Shown piece after piece: positions 54,014 through 63,406 of a DNA stretch of 64,000 bases. The translations under genes were made by a program, and so were the position numbers. The notes under the pieces were generated by a model, which saw only the letters and a list, made by a program, of their open reading frames with translations, was not told the DNA's origin and did not search any database. Positions within the stretch are counted from its first letter, which is position 1, and each line of letters opens with the position of its first letter. This DNA is from Thalassotalea hakodatensis (GTDB taxonomy: Bacteria; Pseudomonadota; Gammaproteobacteria; Enterobacterales; Alteromonadaceae): contig NZ_AP027365.1 of NCBI RefSeq assembly GCF_030295995.1, positions 2,264,066 to 2,328,065 on the forward strand, read 5' to 3'.

Positions 54014-55204
54014 CTAAGTAAATCGTCGCCAAACATACTCTAATGGACCAAGTTGATACTTCTTTAACCAAAAGCGAGCAAATAGAAGTTGTATTGATAT
54101 GATGCAAGTGCCAAAAACAATAATAGAATAAAAAGGCACTTTCCCCATCCACGCAAAACCATAACCATAAAATAAGAAAACACAAACTGTGGTTTGCATC
54201 AAATACATGGTTAGTGCCATACGGCCAAGCTGCGATAAGCCTGAAAAGTTAACACCGTTATGCGATAAACGATAAAGCAATGCCATATAAGCAAGCGCCA
54301 TCATTATACAACCCACCTGATAAACTAAGCCTTGAAATAAACCGAGCAAATCCGTAGAAAATGGGCTGCCCGTTATTGCTTTAATATAAGCATAAATAAA
54401 ACTAAACCCTGCTCCAACAACAAATAACTTTATAATGTTATCCTTCGATGGCACATGAACTTGTCCACGTAAATATAAGCGAGCTAAATATACGCCAAGT
54501 AAAAATTGCCCTAACACCTGAAACGGCCGGCCCGTTTTTAAATATGCCATAGGACGTGGAATGGCACTAAAGATATTGCCCCAAAAAACATCCTTCGCTT
54601 CTTGAGCAGTGCGTAAAGATAACAAACTGACTTCTTGATAACCTAAGCTTTTTCTCAAATTATAAACAGTTTCTGTTAATGCATTCCAACCATTTAATTG
54701 TGAAGTTAACGATAATAATAGATGCATCAAAAGTGGTGCACACAACAATACAATAATCCAGCGGCATAAACGCGTATCGTCGATATCCTTAAAATACAAC
54801 AAACAAACACCTAATAAACTATATAGGGTTAAAATATCACCATGCCATATTAAATACATATGGCTTATGCCCATGACAAATAAAACCAACATTCGTTTTA
54901 ACCAAAAGGCGGTAAAATTTTTATTTTGTCGTTTCAATTTAGCGTATTGAAGAGCAAAACCAGCACCAAGTAATGTGGCAAAAACACTATAAAATTTACC
55001 TTCAATTAAAAAATCAATAACAAACAAAACCCCGCGATCCCACCATGGTAATGCTTGAATTTCATTGAAGTTAAGTGAATAAAAACCAGTAAAGCTGACC
55101 AAATTAGCAAAAATAATTCCACATAATGCAAAGCCGCGCATGGTATCTAGCGCACCAATACGCTGTTTAGTCGAGTGAACTCTATCTTTAGCAGTTAACA
55201 GCAT
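54014..55204 (-). CDS. DUF418 (YeiB-type) inner-membrane protein
   Basis: A 396-residue protein with about ten hydrophobic segments. The N-terminal 'RIGALDTMRGFALCGIIFANLVSF' (acyltransferase-like), the 'FYSVFATLLGAGFALQYAK' segment, and the C-terminal DUF418 part ending in GPLEYVWRRFT are diagnostic. The function is unknown. It is divergent from the TonB-receptor operon; the Zur-like palindrome at 55283-55302 lies 79 bases upstream of its start and could control both. Confidence 0.88.
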   Translation of the reverse strand: MLLTAKDRVHSTKQRIGALDTMRGFALCGIIFANLVSFTGFYSLNFNEIQALPWWDRGVLFVIDFLIEGKFYSVFATLLGAGFALQYAKLKRQNKNFTAFWLKRMLVLFVMGISHMYLIWHGDILTLYSLLGVCLLYFKDIDDTRLCRWIIVLLCAPLLMHLLLSLTSQLNGWNALTETVYNLRKSLGYQEVSLLSLRTAQEAKDVFWGNIFSAIPRPMAYLKTGRPFQVLGQFLLGVYLARLYLRGQVHVPSKDNIIKLFVVGAGFSFIYAYIKAITGSPFSTDLLGLFQGLVYQVGCIMMALAYMALLYRLSHNGVNFSGLSQLGRMALTMYLMQTTVCVFLFYGYGFAWMGKVPFYSIIVFGTCIISIQLLFARFWLKKYQLGPLEYVWRRFT

Positions 55205-55282: not shown

Positions 55283-55302
55283 AGTTATGTTATAACATAA
55301 CT
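55283..55302. promoter_or_regulatory. Zur-like operator in the promoter region of the TonB-receptor operon
   Basis: AGTTATGTTATAACATAACT is a perfect 20-bp palindrome, 185 bases upstream of the receptor start. Its inner 18 bases match 16 of 18 positions of the published Zur consensus of the Agrobacterium group (GATATGTTATAACATATC, recalled from the literature). It also has the TGTTATAACA core. This suggests zinc-dependent repression. The zur gene is not in the window. Confidence 0.55.
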
Positions 55303-55486
55303 TTAAATAGAATTAAAAGATTAATAACGAGATCAATTTATTACACATCATTTTATTGTTTAGCTGGTTTCTCAAGTGCATTTACATTTTGTGTGCTGTT
55401 TGTCGGCTAACTGAACAAAAAACAACTCAATATAGCCTTTAAGCTTTATTAACAAAGAACTAACTTATACTACTAGGAGTATTTTT

Positions 55487-57748
55487 ATGCATAGTATCAA
55501 CCGCTATGTGTCACGCTTTACTGCATTAAGTACAGCACTATCAATAGCTTTTGTTACTCAGGCGCAAGTATCAGATACGACCGCTAAAAACGAAGACATT
55601 GAAGAACAACAAATCGAACGATTAGTGATCATGGGTAGCCCCGTTGGCACCCTTGGCCTAAATAATGAATCAAGCACAGCAAGCCGACTAGGCTTAAATG
55701 CAATGGAAACACCTGCAACAATTGAAATTGTTGATGCCGAGCTAATGCGTGCGCGAGGTTATACAAAGTTATCTGATTCATTAGCAAATCTACCAGGTGT
55801 TGTAACCGGTGAGCACCCTACTTCACCATCAACATTTTCAATGCGAGGCTTTAGTCGAGGACAAATTACCGTATTGCGTGATGGATTATGGATTGGACCA
55901 AGCACAATGGTGATGCGGCCACAAAATACTTTTAACCTTGAACGTGTAGAAATACTGCGTGGCCCAGCATCCGTGTTAAATGGTATCGGTTCTGTAGCAG
56001 GAACGGTAAATGCAATAACTAAAACAGCATACGCTGGCATGAACAATGGCACAAACTTACAACTCGGGTATGGCAGCCATAATTCATATCATTTAGGTTT
56101 AGGTAGTCAAGGTGAATTAGATGAAAACCTATGGTACACCTTTGATGTAAGCCGATATGCCAGTGACGGTTACGTTGATAACACCAATTCAGAATCAAAT
56201 AATTTCACCACCAGCCTTTTATGGCAAGCAAGTGACAAACTTTCCTTGAAATTTAGTGCCGATTATTTAGAGGATGATGTAGGTAGTTATTACGGAACGC
56301 CTTTAATACCAGCAAATGATGCTAAAGATCCGTTGGGCATTATTGAAACAGGACGCGGTGAAGTACTTGATGGTGCTATGCGATACAACAATTATAATGT
56401 TGCAGACGCATACGCAAAATCTGATCAATTGTTCCTAAGGCTAGATGCCGACTATCACATACATGAAGATATGCGATTACAATATACCCTGTTTAAATTT
56501 GATGCTTCGCGCGCATGGCAAAATGCAGAAGGTTATGTTTATTGTACTGAAGTAGCCGGTACTTGTAACAATTACGGGGAGGTACAACGCTATTATGGTT
56601 ACTTTATATTAGATCATGAGCAAGACGTTTTAGGTAACCGTATTACCTTAAATGTAAATTCGACGTTTGGCGAGATAGAAAGTCGCCTGGTGACTGGCTT
56701 TGAAACCACATCATTAGACTTTGTTAGATCTCGTGGTTTTCGTAGACAAGTTGAACAAACGCCCGCAGATGCCCTTGATCCATATAGCCCACAACCTGGC
56801 GTTTATGGTCAGCGAGAGTTACGAGGTGTCAGCCCAACAGATATGACAACGCGTGCATTTTTCTTTGGTAATGCATTACAACTTACCGATAAATTAAGCC
56901 TTGTTACAGGCGCTCGCTATGAAACATTAAAACTGACAAGAGAAAACTTTAATGCTGAAGGTGAAAATGAAAACAGTGGCTTTAAACGAGATTATAACTG
57001 GATAAGTTGGCGTATTGGCAGTGTTTATAAACTCACTGATGATACCGTACTATATGGCCAATATAGCAATGCTAAAGATCCTATCAATTCAAATATTTTT
57101 TTAGTTAATAACAATCAAAACTTTGACTTAACAGACGCAACTCAATTTGAAGTTGGTCTAAAAGCCAGTTGGATGCAAGGTAAAGCAGAAACTACTCTTG
57201 CTTATTTTAACATTGAACGTGATGATATTTTTGAACGATTTGCTCTTGATAGTGTTACCAATGTTGGTGGTCGAAGTTCAAAAGGTATCGAAGCATCAAC
57301 CTCATTACTATTAAGTGACAATTGGCGACTTGGCGCGAATGCCGCCTATACAGAGGCTACCTTTGAACGTTCTGCAAATGTTGAATTATTTGCAGGGAAC
57401 ACCCCGCCTAATGTACCTGAGCTAACGGCTAATATTTATTCTAGTTACGATAACATCGCCAACTTACCAATAGAAGTTGGGGCATCAATACATTTTGTTG
57501 ATGACCGTTATGGCGACAATCCTAATACCGTTACCTTAAAAGCCTATACCTTGACCAATATTTTTGCTTCTTATAAAGGCGACAACTATCGAGTTACGGC
57601 TCGCATAGACAACCTTTTTGATAAAGCATATGCACCTTGGTCTGATGTGTTTTATTTACATCAAGACAGTCCAGGCTTTATTTATGCGAATGAATTATTA
57701 ATCGGTGCACCACGTAATGTACGTGTGATGTTTGATTACCAATTCTAA
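55487..57748 (+). CDS. TonB-dependent outer-membrane receptor (siderophore-receptor type)
   Basis: A 753-residue receptor with a signal peptide (about 1-26, ending TQA). The plug domain (about 70-185) shows 'ETPATIEIVDAELMRARGYTKLSDSLANLPGV' and 'FSMRGFSRGQITVLRDGL'. It ends in 'LERVEILRGPASVLNGIGSVAGTVNAITK'. The C-terminal 22-strand barrel ends in the usual aromatic F (VMFDYQF). By similarity of plan it belongs to the FhuA/FhuE-like ferric-siderophore group, but the upstream palindrome suggests zinc or zincophore uptake. An AGGAG site precedes the ATG. It is first in a five-gene operon. Confidence 0.9.
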   Translation: MHSINRYVSRFTALSTALSIAFVTQAQVSDTTAKNEDIEEQQIERLVIMGSPVGTLGLNNESSTASRLGLNAMETPATIEIVDAELMRARGYTKLSDSLANLPGVVTGEHPTSPSTFSMRGFSRGQITVLRDGLWIGPSTMVMRPQNTFNLERVEILRGPASVLNGIGSVAGTVNAITKTAYAGMNNGTNLQLGYGSHNSYHLGLGSQGELDENLWYTFDVSRYASDGYVDNTNSESNNFTTSLLWQASDKLSLKFSADYLEDDVGSYYGTPLIPANDAKDPLGIIETGRGEVLDGAMRYNNYNVADAYAKSDQLFLRLDADYHIHEDMRLQYTLFKFDASRAWQNAEGYVYCTEVAGTCNNYGEVQRYYGYFILDHEQDVLGNRITLNVNSTFGEIESRLVTGFETTSLDFVRSRGFRRQVEQTPADALDPYSPQPGVYGQRELRGVSPTDMTTRAFFFGNALQLTDKLSLVTGARYETLKLTRENFNAEGENENSGFKRDYNWISWRIGSVYKLTDDTVLYGQYSNAKDPINSNIFLVNNNQNFDLTDATQFEVGLKASWMQGKAETTLAYFNIERDDIFERFALDSVTNVGGRSSKGIEASTSLLLSDNWRLGANAAYTEATFERSANVELFAGNTPPNVPELTANIYSSYDNIANLPIEVGASIHFVDDRYGDNPNTVTLKAYTLTNIFASYKGDNYRVTARIDNLFDKAYAPWSDVFYLHQDSPGFIYANELLIGAPRNVRVMFDYQF

Positions 57749-57764
57749 AAGCAAAGGAATGATT

Positions 57765-59816
57765 ATGTTTAACGTCAATCATGCATTATTTTGGCTAAGT
57801 TTATCTGTTATATGTGCTACTAACATACCGTTTAATGTAAAAGCTGCTGAGCATAAAGACGAAGTTTATTCAACGACGTTTTTTGATCAGTATTCGCCTT
57901 TAACAGCATTAGATATGGTGAATCAATTACCAGGTTTTACGTTAATTGAAACCGACGATGATATACGAGGCTTTACTACAGGTGCTGGTAATGTATTGAT
58001 TGATGGTCGACGCCCAACCACTAAATCAGGTGGAATAAACGAAACTCTTTCACGTATTTCCGCTGCACAAGTCGCGTACATAGAAATTTTACGCGGTGCA
58101 TCTGGTTCCTCAGACGCCGCAGGTCAAGCCGTTGTTGCCAATGTAGTAAAATTGAAGCAAGGCGCAGCTAAGCATTGGAAACTTGCCTTTGAAAAAACAG
58201 GTAACGGTGAGCTTTCACCAAGTACTGAATGGGTTTTATCTAACCACATAAAGGGATGGGACAGCGCGTTTAAGTTTAATGCCATCAGTCAAAAATCACC
58301 TAGAGATGCTAACATTTCAACTTATGGTCCCACAATGGAGCTGCTCAGCTATCAGCAGGAAACCCGGCCCAGTACGCTAAACGATATTTTTATTTCAGGA
58401 GATAGCAAAAAACAATTCAATCAACATACTTTTAGTATCAACGCGAGAGTTGGTTGGAGCCAGTTTGTTACCGATACCGAGCGTTTAAGCTATACACAGC
58501 CGCAACAAAATCAAATCATTAATCGATATCAAAATGATCGTGATAGCCAATTTTATACGGGCGAATTAGGTCTAGAATGGCAAAAAATCCTTGCCCCACA
58601 CTGGCAGTGGCGAATTTTAAACATTAACAACGTGCAGAATTGGTTTGTTAATTCATTTTCATTCGACAAGCCACCTAATGAAGATATTAAAAACGCCACC
58701 CGTTTACGATTTGATGAACATAGATCTGAACATGTTTTACGTAATGTATTTAGTAGAACGGGTGGAGAACAAGGCATGCTAAAACAGCAGGAATATGGGC
58801 TAGAAGTCGCCTTCAGTACTTTAGAAAGTTGGTTGACACTTGAACGACAAGATTTATTAACGCCGCAGTTAACGAATAAACGTTATTCACAGGCGAAAGA
58901 AATACGAGGTGAAGCCTTTGCTAACCTTAACTGGCAATGGCAAAAATTAGTATTAGATACCGGTATTGCTGCAGAATACTCTCAACTTAACGTGACTGGC
59001 GATAATAGCGATGAACAATCATTATTCTTTTTCAAACCCTCACTTGCGCTCGCTTATAACAGCGATAAAAATCGCCAATATCGAATTAGTCTGCGTCGTT
59101 CAGTAGGTCAACTTGATTTTAGTGATTTTGCTGCCAGTGCTGATTTAGTTAACGATCGTGAAATTTCAGGTAATCCCCGCCTACGCCCAGAAACAAAAAC
59201 AAAAGCCACTCTAGCTTTCGATCAACGATTTGCTGAAAAAGGCGCATTCTCAATAGCACTGTATTATGAATGGCGACAACATGTATTAGAGCACATAATT
59301 TTACCTTCAGGGGACTACGCACTTGGCAATGCAGGTAAAGCAGAAGTTAAAGGTATCACATCCTCTTTAAATTTACCGCTACATCAATGGGTCAAAGGAG
59401 CACAAATAGCATTTCAAGCAAATTTTATTGACTCAACCTTTATTGATCCCGTGACTAACCGTAACCGCCAGTTAACAGAATTAACCACCCCTGACATTAC
59501 GGTAGATTTTAGACAAGACATAAATCAACACCATATTTTTTGGGGGATCAGCTATCAAGACTACCAACGTCGTAAAGAATTTTATGTGAATGAATATAGC
59601 CATTTTCACACATACGGGCGATGGCATGTATATGTTGAAGGGATAGTCTTTAACGACTTAAAAATACGAGTTGATATCAGCAATATAGGTGATGACGAAA
59701 CGAAATGGCAACGAAAATTATATCACCCCTCTCGTCACGATGCCCTACAACAATTACAAGTGACACAACGTCATCGAGATCCCACCGTTAACATTAGCTT
59801 TAGTCAAACATTTTAA
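57765..59816 (+). CDS. Second TonB-dependent receptor-like outer-membrane protein
   Basis: With the ATG at 57765 (AAGGA six bases ahead) the protein has 684 residues and a signal peptide of about 26 (MFNVNHALFWLSLSVICATN...VKAA). The plug-like N-terminal region has 'ALDMVNQLPGFTLIE', 'GAGNVLIDGRRPTTKSGGI' and 'VAYIEILRGASGSSDAAGQA'. The remainder is a long beta-barrel ending NISFSQTF. It differs strongly from the first receptor and lacks the siderophore-receptor signatures. It may be a second receptor or partner barrel for the same substrate. It starts 16 bases after the first receptor. Confidence 0.82.
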   Translation: MFNVNHALFWLSLSVICATNIPFNVKAAEHKDEVYSTTFFDQYSPLTALDMVNQLPGFTLIETDDDIRGFTTGAGNVLIDGRRPTTKSGGINETLSRISAAQVAYIEILRGASGSSDAAGQAVVANVVKLKQGAAKHWKLAFEKTGNGELSPSTEWVLSNHIKGWDSAFKFNAISQKSPRDANISTYGPTMELLSYQQETRPSTLNDIFISGDSKKQFNQHTFSINARVGWSQFVTDTERLSYTQPQQNQIINRYQNDRDSQFYTGELGLEWQKILAPHWQWRILNINNVQNWFVNSFSFDKPPNEDIKNATRLRFDEHRSEHVLRNVFSRTGGEQGMLKQQEYGLEVAFSTLESWLTLERQDLLTPQLTNKRYSQAKEIRGEAFANLNWQWQKLVLDTGIAAEYSQLNVTGDNSDEQSLFFFKPSLALAYNSDKNRQYRISLRRSVGQLDFSDFAASADLVNDREISGNPRLRPETKTKATLAFDQRFAEKGAFSIALYYEWRQHVLEHIILPSGDYALGNAGKAEVKGITSSLNLPLHQWVKGAQIAFQANFIDSTFIDPVTNRNRQLTELTTPDITVDFRQDINQHHIFWGISYQDYQRRKEFYVNEYSHFHTYGRWHVYVEGIVFNDLKIRVDISNIGDDETKWQRKLYHPSRHDALQQLQVTQRHRDPTVNISFSQTF

Positions 59817-59831
59817 TTCAAGGATAACCCT

Positions 59832-60566
59832 ATGTTACGCATCGAAGAATTAACGAAAGCATTTAATGACAATTATGCTTTGCAACAACTTTCATTAAAC
59901 ATTGAACCAGGTGAAATATATTGCCTACTTGGTAGTAATGGTGCCGGTAAAAGTACAACACTCAACCTGTTACTTGGTTTTTTAAAAGCAGACAGCGGAC
60001 ACATCTATATTGATGAAAAACTTGTGGATGTAAATCAAAAACATTCACTTGCTACAGCGAGAGATAAAATTGCGTATATCCCAGAACAAGTAAATTTATA
60101 TCCGCAGTTTAATGCCATGGAGAATCTAGCATATTTAGCGAATTTAGGTGGCATTAAACCCGCCTACGAGCAATTTGAGCAAGCATTAACACAAACAGGC
60201 CTTGCTAAAAATATGTGGCATAAGCCGCTAAAAGATTATTCAAAAGGTATGCGACAAAAAGTCGGTATCGCATTTGCTATTTTACGCCAAGCAAAGCTAT
60301 TACTGTTAGACGAACCAACCTCTGGGCTTGATCCAAGTGCTACACAAGAGTTTATTCATATAATAGATAATCTTGCACAACAAGGTGCTGCAGTATTAAT
60401 GGTTACTCATGATCTTGAGTGTAGCACTACATTAGGAGATAAGTTTGCCATCCTAAAGGAAGGAGAAGTCATAGAGCAGTTTAGTCAAAAAGACCTTGCT
60501 AGCGTCCCGCTTCATCAACGCTACCAACAATCCATTTATCCTCAACCCATTAATTTAAGTGCATAG
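59832..60566 (+). CDS. ABC transporter ATP-binding protein (ABC-2 type)
   Basis: A 244-residue ATPase. Walker A is GSNGAGKST (34-42). A signature loop variant reads DYSKGMRQKVGIAF, and Walker B is LLLLDEPTSGLDP with H-loop 'LMVTHDLE'. It resembles NosF- and CcmA-like ATPases that pair with ABC-2 membrane proteins. It lies 15 bases after the second receptor and 11 before the first permease, so the five genes form one transcript. Confidence 0.92.
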   Translation: MLRIEELTKAFNDNYALQQLSLNIEPGEIYCLLGSNGAGKSTTLNLLLGFLKADSGHIYIDEKLVDVNQKHSLATARDKIAYIPEQVNLYPQFNAMENLAYLANLGGIKPAYEQFEQALTQTGLAKNMWHKPLKDYSKGMRQKVGIAFAILRQAKLLLLDEPTSGLDPSATQEFIHIIDNLAQQGAAVLMVTHDLECSTTLGDKFAILKEGEVIEQFSQKDLASVPLHQRYQQSIYPQPINLSA

Positions 60567-60577
60567 CAGGTGAAACG

Positions 60578-62014
60578 ATGAAACAAATTCGCGCTATTTT
60601 TATCCATGAGTGGCAACAAAAACGTCGTAGTGATCTGCTGATTTTATTGTTTATCACGATGCAAATTTTATTATTAATTGCCTTACTAACCGCCTGGGGA
60701 CAATTTAAACATACGCTAAATCAACAACAAAGTGCTCAAACCATCGTTGAACAGCAATGGCAACAGCAACCTGAACGTCACCCACACCGCGTTGCTCATT
60801 TTGGACATTTTACCTTCCGACCACCAAGTTCATTAAGCTTTTTTGATAATGGCGTTAACCATTTTGTTGGTAATGCCATATACATAGAAGCCCATAAACA
60901 AAACAGTGCTAATTTTGCCAATATTCAAGACAGTGATGTGCTATTAAGGTTCTCTGAGTTATCTGTCGCTAATATTTTATTATTATGTTGGCCCTTATTG
61001 CTGATAGCACTTGCCTATAACAGCATGGTGACTGAACGAGAAACTGGCACATTACGTCAGCTTCTATCGATGAATATACCTCTGACACGCTTACTCATTG
61101 GTAAAGGATTAGCTTACTTTGTTGTATCTATTTTATTTATCTTTCCCACTTTTATCTGTACATTTGGTTTGATTACGTTTAGTGGTCTTGGCTCTAATGT
61201 CGATACATTATTGCGTATTTTAACATTGTTCGTGCTATATCTGGCGTATTGTGGTTTTTGGATAGGGCTAATTTTAGTCATTTCTAGTGTGGTAAAGTAC
61301 TCCTCACAAGCACTTAATATTTTGATCGCCATTTGGTTTTTATTAACCATTATAAGCCCGCGATTATTAGCGGATATTGCAGGTGAAAGCTACCCTCAAC
61401 TTAACCGTAATGCGTTTAACCAACAAATTAAACAAGCCATAAATCAAGTAGGTGATAGCCATAATCCAGACGATCCACACTTTAACGATTTCAAAACAAA
61501 AGTATTAGCACAATATGGTGTAAACCATATAGAAGAATTGCCCGTTAATTATAGAGCACTAGTTATTCAAGAAGGCGAACGTATTAGTTCTGAAATTTAT
61601 ACGCGATTGTATCAGCAGCAAGTTGAACAATTACGTAAGCAACAATCGATGCTCGCTAACTGGTATTGGATCAATCCTTATTTATTAGTACGTGATATAT
61701 CAATGGCACTATCTGCTACTGATGTATGGCACTTTTATGACTTTGAACAGCAAACAGAAGCACATCGCTTTGCTAGAATTTCAAAACTCAATAAAATACA
61801 TGCTGAACATATCGAACGTGAACATGATAGTTCATCAAAAGCTGATTCAACTCACTGGCAAGACTTTGAACGCTTTGAATATCAAGTACCGTCACTCTCT
61901 TTCTCATTAGCACCATTTAAGCAAGTTTGGTTTATGCCATTAATATGCTTTTTTCTCATTGGTGGTTTGTTATTTAGCAAAATCTTACGTAGGAGTATTT
62001 ATGCATTGGCTTAA
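60578..62014 (+). CDS. ABC-2 type permease with DUF3526 features (first)
   Basis: A 478-residue inner-membrane protein with an N-terminal helix (about 20-40) and a first outside loop. Five or six helices from about 130 to 265 follow ('LLLCWPLLLIALAYNSMVTERETGTLRQLL'), then a second large loop and a C-terminal helix near 455-470. The first loop holds four histidines (68, 70, 74 and 77) in RHPHRVAHFGH, which may bind metal, though an H-F-G-type motif is common in DUF3526 proteins. It probably forms the channel together with the second permease and the ATPase. Confidence 0.85.
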   Translation: MKQIRAIFIHEWQQKRRSDLLILLFITMQILLLIALLTAWGQFKHTLNQQQSAQTIVEQQWQQQPERHPHRVAHFGHFTFRPPSSLSFFDNGVNHFVGNAIYIEAHKQNSANFANIQDSDVLLRFSELSVANILLLCWPLLLIALAYNSMVTERETGTLRQLLSMNIPLTRLLIGKGLAYFVVSILFIFPTFICTFGLITFSGLGSNVDTLLRILTLFVLYLAYCGFWIGLILVISSVVKYSSQALNILIAIWFLLTIISPRLLADIAGESYPQLNRNAFNQQIKQAINQVGDSHNPDDPHFNDFKTKVLAQYGVNHIEELPVNYRALVIQEGERISSEIYTRLYQQQVEQLRKQQSMLANWYWINPYLLVRDISMALSATDVWHFYDFEQQTEAHRFARISKLNKIHAEHIEREHDSSSKADSTHWQDFERFEYQVPSLSFSLAPFKQVWFMPLICFFLIGGLLFSKILRRSIYALA

Positions 62015-63356
62015 ATTTGAAATTAAACTCTTATTATCTAGCGTTGTCACAAGAATGACACTTTTGTTAGTGATCACATGTGCGTTATTCGCGATTAAAT
62101 TCGGTGATAATGCATTACAACAGCAAAAACAAGCGCAGGCCCAAAGCCAGGCAAAATTTGAACAAACACTGACGCAATATCAAAAACAAACGTCACCCCC
62201 AACTGCCGGTCATTTAGGTTATTACTTATTTGGAGCAACACAGTGGCAGTTATCACCTTGGTCAGCTTTATTTATAGGTCAAAGTCAAACCGCCTATGCT
62301 GATATGCCGGTAAGAGCGTTAGCATTACAAGGACAGATTTATACGCAAGAAATGTTGAACCCAAACCAACAAAAAGCGGGTCGTTTAGATTTAGGTTTTG
62401 TGTTCATATATTTAATGCCTTTATTACTGGGAGCGTTAGCGGTAACAACATTAAGTGATGAACGACAAGCAAACCGGTGGCGAATACTTAATTCCTTAGT
62501 TCAAGCAGGTACAGGATTAATCTGGCGGCGATTAATACTTTGCGGTTTGTTGGTATTAGGGCTCAGTTATAGCTTACTCGTATTAGCCGTGATTTGGTTA
62601 AACCTTAATATCAGTGAAATTTTCTGGTGGTTAATTTGCGCGCTAGCCTTGTATCTTTGTTTTTGGAGTTTAGTGGTTGCCCTGATCATATGTTTGGGGA
62701 AAAACTCCGTATTTAATACCTTCTCATTTGTCGCTATTTGGTTAGCGATAACCATATTACTGCCAGCAAGTATACAATTGTATTTAAATCATCAGTATCA
62801 AGACCACCCTGCACTTGCGGCAACACTAGAACAGCGAATGATAATGAATAATGGCTGGGATGCTCCGCCACAACAAGCATTTCAACAATTTATTAAACTG
62901 TACCCACAATACCAGAACTTTGAACTTCCTGATGCAAGTGGTTCTTGGCCATGGTATTACGCACAACAACACCTTAGTGATGTGCAAGTAAATCATCAAT
63001 GGCAGCAATATCTGCAACAATCAGAAAGTAGATTCGAGACTTTAAAGGCCTTAAGTTGGTTGACGCCTAGTCTACAATTACAATTGAATGTCAATCACCT
63101 TGCTGGAAGCGACGGTGAAAGTTACTTACACTACCTTAAAAGTATTGATAACTATCATCAGGAAATTCGTGAGTATTTATATCAGCATTTATATACTGAA
63201 AATAAAATTAATCAGCACAGCTTACCCCAGTTTCCTCGTTTTAATAGCCAGCAAATACAGAGCGTGAACTGGTCAGGTTTACTCAAACTCGTCGTACTCA
63301 TTTTAGTGCTGTTAATATTCTTTGATTGGCGGCGTAAAAAATTACCTGAATATTAA
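62001..63356 (+). CDS. ABC-2 type permease with DUF3526 features (second)
   Basis: The frame opens at 61959, but the ATG at 62001 (MHWLKFEIKLL) follows an AGGAG site six bases away, so this start is chosen (451 residues). It overlaps the first permease by 14 bases. The plan repeats that of the first permease: an N-terminal helix, an outside loop, helices from about 130 to 265 ('FIYLMPLLLGALAVTTLSDERQANRWRIL'), a second loop and a terminal helix. The two are probably heterodimer partners. A bidirectional terminator follows. Confidence 0.83.
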   Translation: MHWLKFEIKLLLSSVVTRMTLLLVITCALFAIKFGDNALQQQKQAQAQSQAKFEQTLTQYQKQTSPPTAGHLGYYLFGATQWQLSPWSALFIGQSQTAYADMPVRALALQGQIYTQEMLNPNQQKAGRLDLGFVFIYLMPLLLGALAVTTLSDERQANRWRILNSLVQAGTGLIWRRLILCGLLVLGLSYSLLVLAVIWLNLNISEIFWWLICALALYLCFWSLVVALIICLGKNSVFNTFSFVAIWLAITILLPASIQLYLNHQYQDHPALAATLEQRMIMNNGWDAPPQQAFQQFIKLYPQYQNFELPDASGSWPWYYAQQHLSDVQVNHQWQQYLQQSESRFETLKALSWLTPSLQLQLNVNHLAGSDGESYLHYLKSIDNYHQEIREYLYQHLYTENKINQHSLPQFPRFNSQQIQSVNWSGLLKLVVLILVLLIFFDWRRKKLPEY

Positions 63357-63374: not shown

Positions 63375-63406
63375 AAAGGGGCTAAATGTTAACATTTAGC
63401 CCCTTT
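63375..63406. terminator. Bidirectional terminator between the ABC operon and pyrF
   Basis: A perfect 16-bp inverted repeat AAAGGGGCTAAATGTT/AACATTTAGCCCCTTT is followed by AATTTTT on the plus strand. It serves the convergent ABC operon and pyrF. Confidence 0.85.

Follow-up and report, generated by a model that had tools for sequence, protein, structure and literature searches.

Zinc-responsive loci that join a TonB-dependent receptor to an ABC-2-type ATP-binding cassette (ABC) transporter have been described in Caulobacter crescentus. There, Zur represses znuK, encoding a TonB receptor, and znuGHI, encoding an ABC-2 ATPase and two permeases; the passages of the study that deal with these genes report array changes of ~12- to 41-fold, lacZ and electrophoretic mobility shift assays, and give znuK a role in growth when zinc is withheld (PMC4176598). 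A passage of a 2018 review counts znuGHI among the ABC-type zinc uptake systems (PMC6103462). Similarly, the 64,000-nucleotide stretch of the Thalassotalea hakodatensis genome analyzed here (the window; 64 kb) holds a Zur-like palindrome ahead of genes for two TonB-dependent receptors (TBDT1 and TBDT2), an ATPase and two DUF3526 permeases. Our preferred reading, which we hold with moderate confidence, is that these genes form an operon repressed by Zur and devoted to the uptake of chelated zinc, akin to znuK/znuGHI but receiver-only, with no synthesis genes beside it. What is new in this reading is that relatives of the operon are linked to apparent zincophore synthesis and that the operon itself is receiver-only; neither point was met in the literature searched, nor was any paper naming DUF3526.

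The arrangement given in the original prediction, a perfect 20-bp palindrome before five coupled genes, is present with order and coupling as described, and Pfam agrees with two unlike TonB-dependent receptors, an ATPase and two DUF3526-type permeases (Table 1). The five genes are tightly coupled, the start of permease 2 overlapping permease 1. The added statement that no known zinc importer is present is inaccurate, since the ABC has homology to ZnuGHI of Caulobacter; a Zur-linked receptor with an ABC-2 transporter is therefore a kind already known.

Table 1 Features of the putative zinc-chelate uptake operon and its divergent neighbor (window coordinates).
Feature	Position	Strand	Basis or remark
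DUF418 (YeiB-like) membrane protein, divergent	54014-55204	-	shares operator region
Zur-like operator, 20-bp perfect palindrome AGTTATGTTATAACATAACT	55283-55302	.	sequence comparison
TBDT1, siderophore-type TonB-dependent receptor	55487-57748	+	plug and barrel (Pfam)
TBDT2, divergent TonB-dependent receptor	57765-59816	+	plug and barrel (Pfam); open reading frame (ORF) opens at 57732, likely ATG 57765
ABC ATPase, ZnuG-like	59832-60566	+	ABC_tran (Pfam)
Permease 1, ABC-2/DUF3526, ZnuH-like	60578-62014	+	DUF3526 (Pfam); NosY-like fold
Permease 2, DUF3526, ZnuI-like	62001-63356	+	DUF3526 (Pfam); likely ATG 62001

For the comparison with Caulobacter, a Caulobacteraceae set was identified as ZnuGHI by the exact published 19-mer operator and by layout. 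The 19-mer is exact in 2 of 249 Caulobacteraceae genomes, occurs with one mismatch in a third, and sits between the receptor gene and the ABC in the matching genomes. To the ABC beside the exact 19-mer, the ATPase of the window is 39.5% identical, permease 1 34.6% (E 4e-87) and permease 2 27%. The window thus shares with znuK/znuGHI (CC1517-CC1520) a TonB receptor adjoining an ABC-2 ATPase and two permeases, with all three ABC proteins homologous, as well as a Zur-type operator with the core GTTATNNNATAAC. Whereas the Caulobacter genes are laid out divergently with one receptor, the window has a single five-gene run with two receptors of other types, an operator doubled by overlap and a DUF418 partner.

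The doubling lies in the conserved 18-bp core GTTATGTTATAACATAAC (55284-55301), which consists of two overlapping copies of GTTATNNNATAAC at 55284-55296 and 55289-55301. Measured against the whole znuK site, the operator shows 4 mismatches in 19 positions, and the 13-mer core is exact twice. Perfect 20-mer palindromes occur twice in the window, compared with ~0.1 expected from base composition. Between the window and two further Thalassotalea records the inner 18 bp are invariant and the outer A..T pair varies, a footprint of limited strength because the whole TBDT1-DUF418 intergenic region already has a mean column identity of 92%. On one side 184 bp separate the palindrome from the TBDT1 ATG, on the other 78 bp separate it from the ATG of the divergent DUF418 gene, and from this position between the two it may serve both the TBDT1 operon and the DUF418 gene. 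A promoter scan gave no score above shuffled sequences. Two other operator types were rejected: the palindrome region differs from the Fur consensus at 10 of 19 positions and from the E. coli-type 23-bp Zur box at 6 of 22.

A search for the same palindrome near znuABC and zur was suggested in the original prediction; no ZnuA-family match was found in the genome, and related but not identical sites stand near a Zur-like gene. The exact 18-mer is confined to a single place in the 4.28-Mb, one-contig genome, while relatives with two mismatches stand upstream of a ZnuD-like receptor gene (two sites) and ~400 bp before a MerC-family gene (one site). The ZnuD-like gene is followed by an AztD-like and then a Zur-like gene, all three scoring below their NCBIfam cut-offs (365 against 950, 104 against 400 and 85 against 167 bits, respectively). 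One of the sites before the ZnuD-like gene is a single mismatch from the published Caulobacter znuK/znuGHI operator; between the two Zur-like sites there lies a Fur-like stretch, ATGATAATGAT (L019:6990-7020), which at best has 6 of 19 mismatches to the Fur consensus. The genome has two Zur-like regulators (L002; L019:11036-11518). The one in L002, elsewhere in the genome, reaches 181.5 bits, above the Zur cut-off of 167; its counterpart next to the ZnuD-like gene resembles the Zur-like protein of Aliikangiella more closely (43% against 32%).

Relatives of the transporter supply further evidence on regulation. Of 369 genomes sampled from the class, 9 have a permease 1 homolog (E up to 1e-20), this genome among them; the best match among named genomes is Thalassotalea sp. 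PP2-459 (99%). In a scan of a genome collection, at least 547 of 593 stretches contained a permease 1 relative, and the best 80 of these at least 547 made up the locus set. A permease 1 ORF was recovered by script in 77 of the 80; 54 of these 77 have a receptor in the run or within two genes, and the receptors of those 54 form two sequence clusters. Operator sites were sought in 100 loci (the 77, the 3 others of the best 80 and 20 further), 98 of which gave an ATPase. Outside Bacteroidota, GWTAYNNNRTAWC lies at most 350 bp upstream of the ATPase in 27 of 60 loci (24 of 57 once three loci fetched by the site itself are removed), counts that include near-identical loci separately and score receptor-first loci, among them the two Thalassotalea records, as misses. 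Shuffled sequences of the same 60 loci gave a mean of 0.20 matches and a maximum of 2. An earlier enrichment test, which took neighboring genes as controls, was weaker: the core GTTAYNNNATAAC was exact in 10 of 37 operons, compared with 7 of the 110 controls (Fisher p 0.0018). Some of these controls are divergent genes that have their upstream region in common with the operon, and ORF starts were placed only approximately. Gene context points the same way in Methylophaga, where the run reads DksA-CobW-DUF1826-ZrgA-Zur-like-ATPase-TBDT-permease 1-permease 2-CobW. Taken with the sites near ZnuD-like and Zur-like genes and the likeness to the znuK operator, these counts lend good comparative support to the predicted zinc regulation; the operon is real and probably zinc-controlled.

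What such a transporter might carry is indicated by the company that it keeps. Opine zincophore (Cnt) loci likewise combine a TonB receptor with an inner-membrane ABC; in the passages of PMC7438024 on published Cnt loci the importers are of the Opp or FecCD type, and none is listed for pseudopaline. The window differs from them in its ABC-2-type transporter and in that nicotianamine synthase has 0 matches in its own genome. In Pseudoalteromonas, by contrast, a close ABC lies downstream of genes for nicotianamine synthase (PF03059, E 4.6e-42 in locus L070), a major facilitator superfamily (MFS) protein and a 150-aa protein with no Pfam or NCBIfam match. Nicotianamine synthase exceeds the Pfam cut-off in 23 of 108 Pseudoalteromonas genomes, and in a 24th it is found only below it. 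Permease 1 at 58% identity or more occurs in 25 of the 108, with 34 more genomes at 29-38%. All 23 synthase genomes are among the 25, leaving two without the synthase; we rely on these counts alone, as the co-occurrence p of 1.6e-21 ignores genome relatedness. In 21 of the 23, synthase and permease 1 start 3.42-3.50 kb apart on one strand (gene order was read in 7 of these 21 and in two other genomes); one of the remaining two has the pair on opposite strands at a distance of 7.5 kb, and the other has it on different contigs. L070 has a Zur-like site also between the 150-aa gene and the ATPase gene, so the synthase part and the ABC may be two transcripts. Some loci add a receptor gene, or a resistance-nodulation-division (RND) pump with a fusion protein, with Zur-like sites between. 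Four of the Pseudoalteromonas loci (L070, L214, L223 and L224) combine synthase, MFS, 150-aa protein and ABC-2 genes with Zur-like sites, some beside the RND pump.

A different apparent synthesis set adjoins the same transporter in Aliikangiella coralliicola (L067, L233). The stretch opens with CobW, DUF1826, ZrgA, Zur-like and MerC genes and continues with TBDT2 (40% identity), TBDT1 (62%), MFS, DUF364 and ATP-grasp genes up to the site GATATGTTATATCATATC. Divergent from this site are genes for a GHMP-kinase-type protein, an SbnA-like pyridoxal phosphate-dependent enzyme (114 bits, below the cut-off of 350), DUF418 (49%), the ATPase (58%), permease 1 (56%) and permease 2 (49%). In a 70-row permease tree, the window and the two Thalassotalea rows join Aliikangiella (support 100/99), and a 15-row clade (100/100) includes this group together with all seven synthase-linked rows. 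Among the papers in the literature searched that name metallophores, zincophores and nicotianamine synthase together, none also names DUF364, ATP-grasp or GHMP kinase.

Of the parts of these apparent zincophore loci, the window keeps only the receptors, the ABC and DUF418; by tblastn (E 1e-2) it contains no homolog of five Aliikangiella synthesis or export proteins or of nicotianamine synthase. Since no chelator genes lie beside the operon and its relatives adjoin apparent synthesis genes, the bacterium may live off the zinc chelators of its neighbors, and the operon perhaps uses foreign zincophores. We infer Zur binding, zinc as the cargo, the use of xenometallophores and the direction of the ABC step from sequence comparison. 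The import of a zinc-carrying compound, one of two options originally offered, fits best: the homologous ABCs and both Aliikangiella receptors are found in loci that appear to encode metallophore synthesis and that have an MFS protein as candidate exporter.

Zinc uptake might also proceed here without any metallophore, the receptors scavenging weakly chelated zinc on ordinary ligands and the ABC acting as a zinc importer in place of ZnuABC. The own genome gives some grounds for this: it has no match to the ZnuA family (PF01297) and none to ZIP, and its sole ABC-3 match (PF00950, E 7.9e-6) lies among cobalamin genes and looks BtuC-like. Two usual inner-membrane zinc routes were therefore not found, in a search that did not extend to others such as Nramp. 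Like ZnuABC, the window would encode a Zur-linked ABC for zinc, with permeases of the ABC-2/DUF3526 rather than the ABC-3 type. Moreover, the passages on C. crescentus ZnuK/ZnuGHI name no zincophore, and znuK matters under zinc deprivation there (PMC4176598); the copper receptor CrtA reportedly takes low-affinity carboxylate chelates (PMC12914433); and among the loci fetched the four Aliikangiella synthesis proteins match that genome only (E 1e-8). On the other hand, the nearest relatives in the tree sit in loci with synthesis genes, and in Aliikangiella both of the unlike receptors travel with such genes. We consider uptake from ordinary ligands a serious but distinctly less probable explanation than metallophore uptake.

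CrtA of Bordetella pertussis (9RVQ) is also the nearest solved structure to TBDT1, and by far the best PDB match (E 6e-66, next 2e-27); in the literature searched, 9RVQ appears in the CrtA paper only (PMC12914433). E337 and the essential H358 of CrtA align with E and H in TBDT1. This could mean a copper or mixed-metal chelate system that has come under a Zur-like site by chance. The metal site is, however, poorly kept, with 2 of the 6 conserved ligand-site residues of CrtA retained in an alignment read by eye (W265 is replaced by Y, Q356 by L and Y130 by P, and R395 is displaced). A PepSY gene lies downstream in >75% of CrtA-type loci, as stated in a passage of that paper (PMC12914433), and the Pfam scan shows none in the operon, whose context is of the Zur type and not of a copper type. 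With the Zur-like cluster context in Methylophaga and Aliikangiella as well, a copper system is very improbable.

The fold of the transporter bears on the direction of transport. The model of permease 1 has a NosY-type fold and, at a lower level, resembles ABCA/ABCG transporters, which likens the system to the copper-delivery ABC NosDFY. It differs from NosDFY in having two unlike permeases and sizeable additional segments, predicted to be periplasmic, that contain invariant histidines, and no NosD-like gene is among the Pfam matches of the operon. Residues H70, H74, E104, H106, N109 and E394 of permease 1 are invariant, the histidines falling in predicted periplasmic loops, while permease 2 shows no invariant histidine cluster. 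The 80-locus scan was seeded on two histidine motifs and is not counted toward this conservation. As a mark of zinc the motif was rejected: a permease for which a script gave no receptor match (L065) also has H70, H74 and H106, so the histidines look family-wide.

The ABC-2 fold would suit a transporter that exports or recycles the bacterium's own or emptied metallophore while the receptors retrieve the loaded form. ABC-pump recycling is known for pyoverdine. The other option of the original prediction, export by the ABC and retrieval by the receptors, is nonetheless less likely than import, because the producer-like loci hold MFS and, in some Pseudoalteromonas, RND and membrane fusion protein candidate exporters near the ABC, the six synthesis and export proteins tried are without a homolog in the window, and the genome lacks a nicotianamine synthase match. 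We regard an export role as unlikely.

In the metallophore-uptake reading, Zur would leave the palindrome when zinc is short and the operon would be transcribed, probably along with the DUF418 gene. TBDT1 and TBDT2, powered by TonB, would bring chelated zinc into the periplasm; the chelator would most likely be a small metallophore that other organisms make. The ATPase and the two unlike permeases would form a heteromeric, NosFY-like ABC-2 transporter driven by ATP, which would move zinc or the complex into the cytoplasm or force zinc release in the periplasm.

Several observations weigh against this reading. ABC-2 proteins are mostly exporters. Copper or some other divalent metal could be what is transported, since the nearest solved relative of TBDT1 imports copper. 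Synthesis genes may lie elsewhere in the genome, because nicotianamine synthase alone was sought genome-wide and the DUF364, ATP-grasp, GHMP and SbnA-like set in the 64-kb window only; the apparent Aliikangiella set itself comes from one genome only. In Bacteroidota none of 38 loci has the GWTAYNNNRTAWC site (0 of 40 for the core GTTAYNNNATAAC in the earlier test, which included one Acidobacteriota locus), so zinc control of such a kind is not universal in the family. Finally, by itself the 13-mer GTTATNNNATAAC is no more frequent in the genome than a reversed-pattern control, with 13 sites (7 of them outside ORFs of at least 60 aa) compared with 17. The core alone is therefore without weight and its neighborhood counts, and the plain count was replaced by genomic context and by the loci of relatives.

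A more specific scenario, which we put forward tentatively and think doubtful as a whole, is that the window is the cheater's half of an undescribed zincophore system. Aliikangiella-like bacteria would make an aminocarboxylate-type chelator with the GHMP-kinase, SbnA-like, ATP-grasp and DUF364 proteins, TBDT1 and TBDT2 would import its zinc complex, and the NosDFY-like ABC would pull the zinc off via its periplasmic histidines. In Pseudoalteromonas the same ABC would serve zincophores of the nicotianamine type and so represent a third inner-membrane class besides Opp and FecCD. This ABC-2 transporter is widespread, accompanies two unlike synthesis sets in relatives and has neither alongside in Thalassotalea; it offers a testable answer to how zinc-loaded chelators pass the inner membrane in several Gram-negative bacteria and would be a marine case of zinc chelators being shared or pirated.

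Of 295 genomes of the order, 10 have a TBDT2 homolog, this genome among them, and so few relatives suggest gain by transfer or repeated loss. In 12 stretches with a TBDT2 homolog the ABC genes were never alongside as a set, and one of the 12 upstream regions (L042) has a Zur-like site. There, the site lies 75 bp upstream of the TBDT2 homolog, near AztD- and ZnuD-like genes, the latter with two sites upstream. At another place (L150, G000:C1:1444942), an GTTATGTTATAAC site stands 184 bp before an ORF whose start is signal-like; the 438 aa examined match no Pfam or NCBIfam family. The second perfect 20-bp palindrome of the window, GCTAAATGTTAACATTTAGC (63381-63400), lies between permease 2 and the following gene, which converge on it, and is perhaps a two-way terminator.

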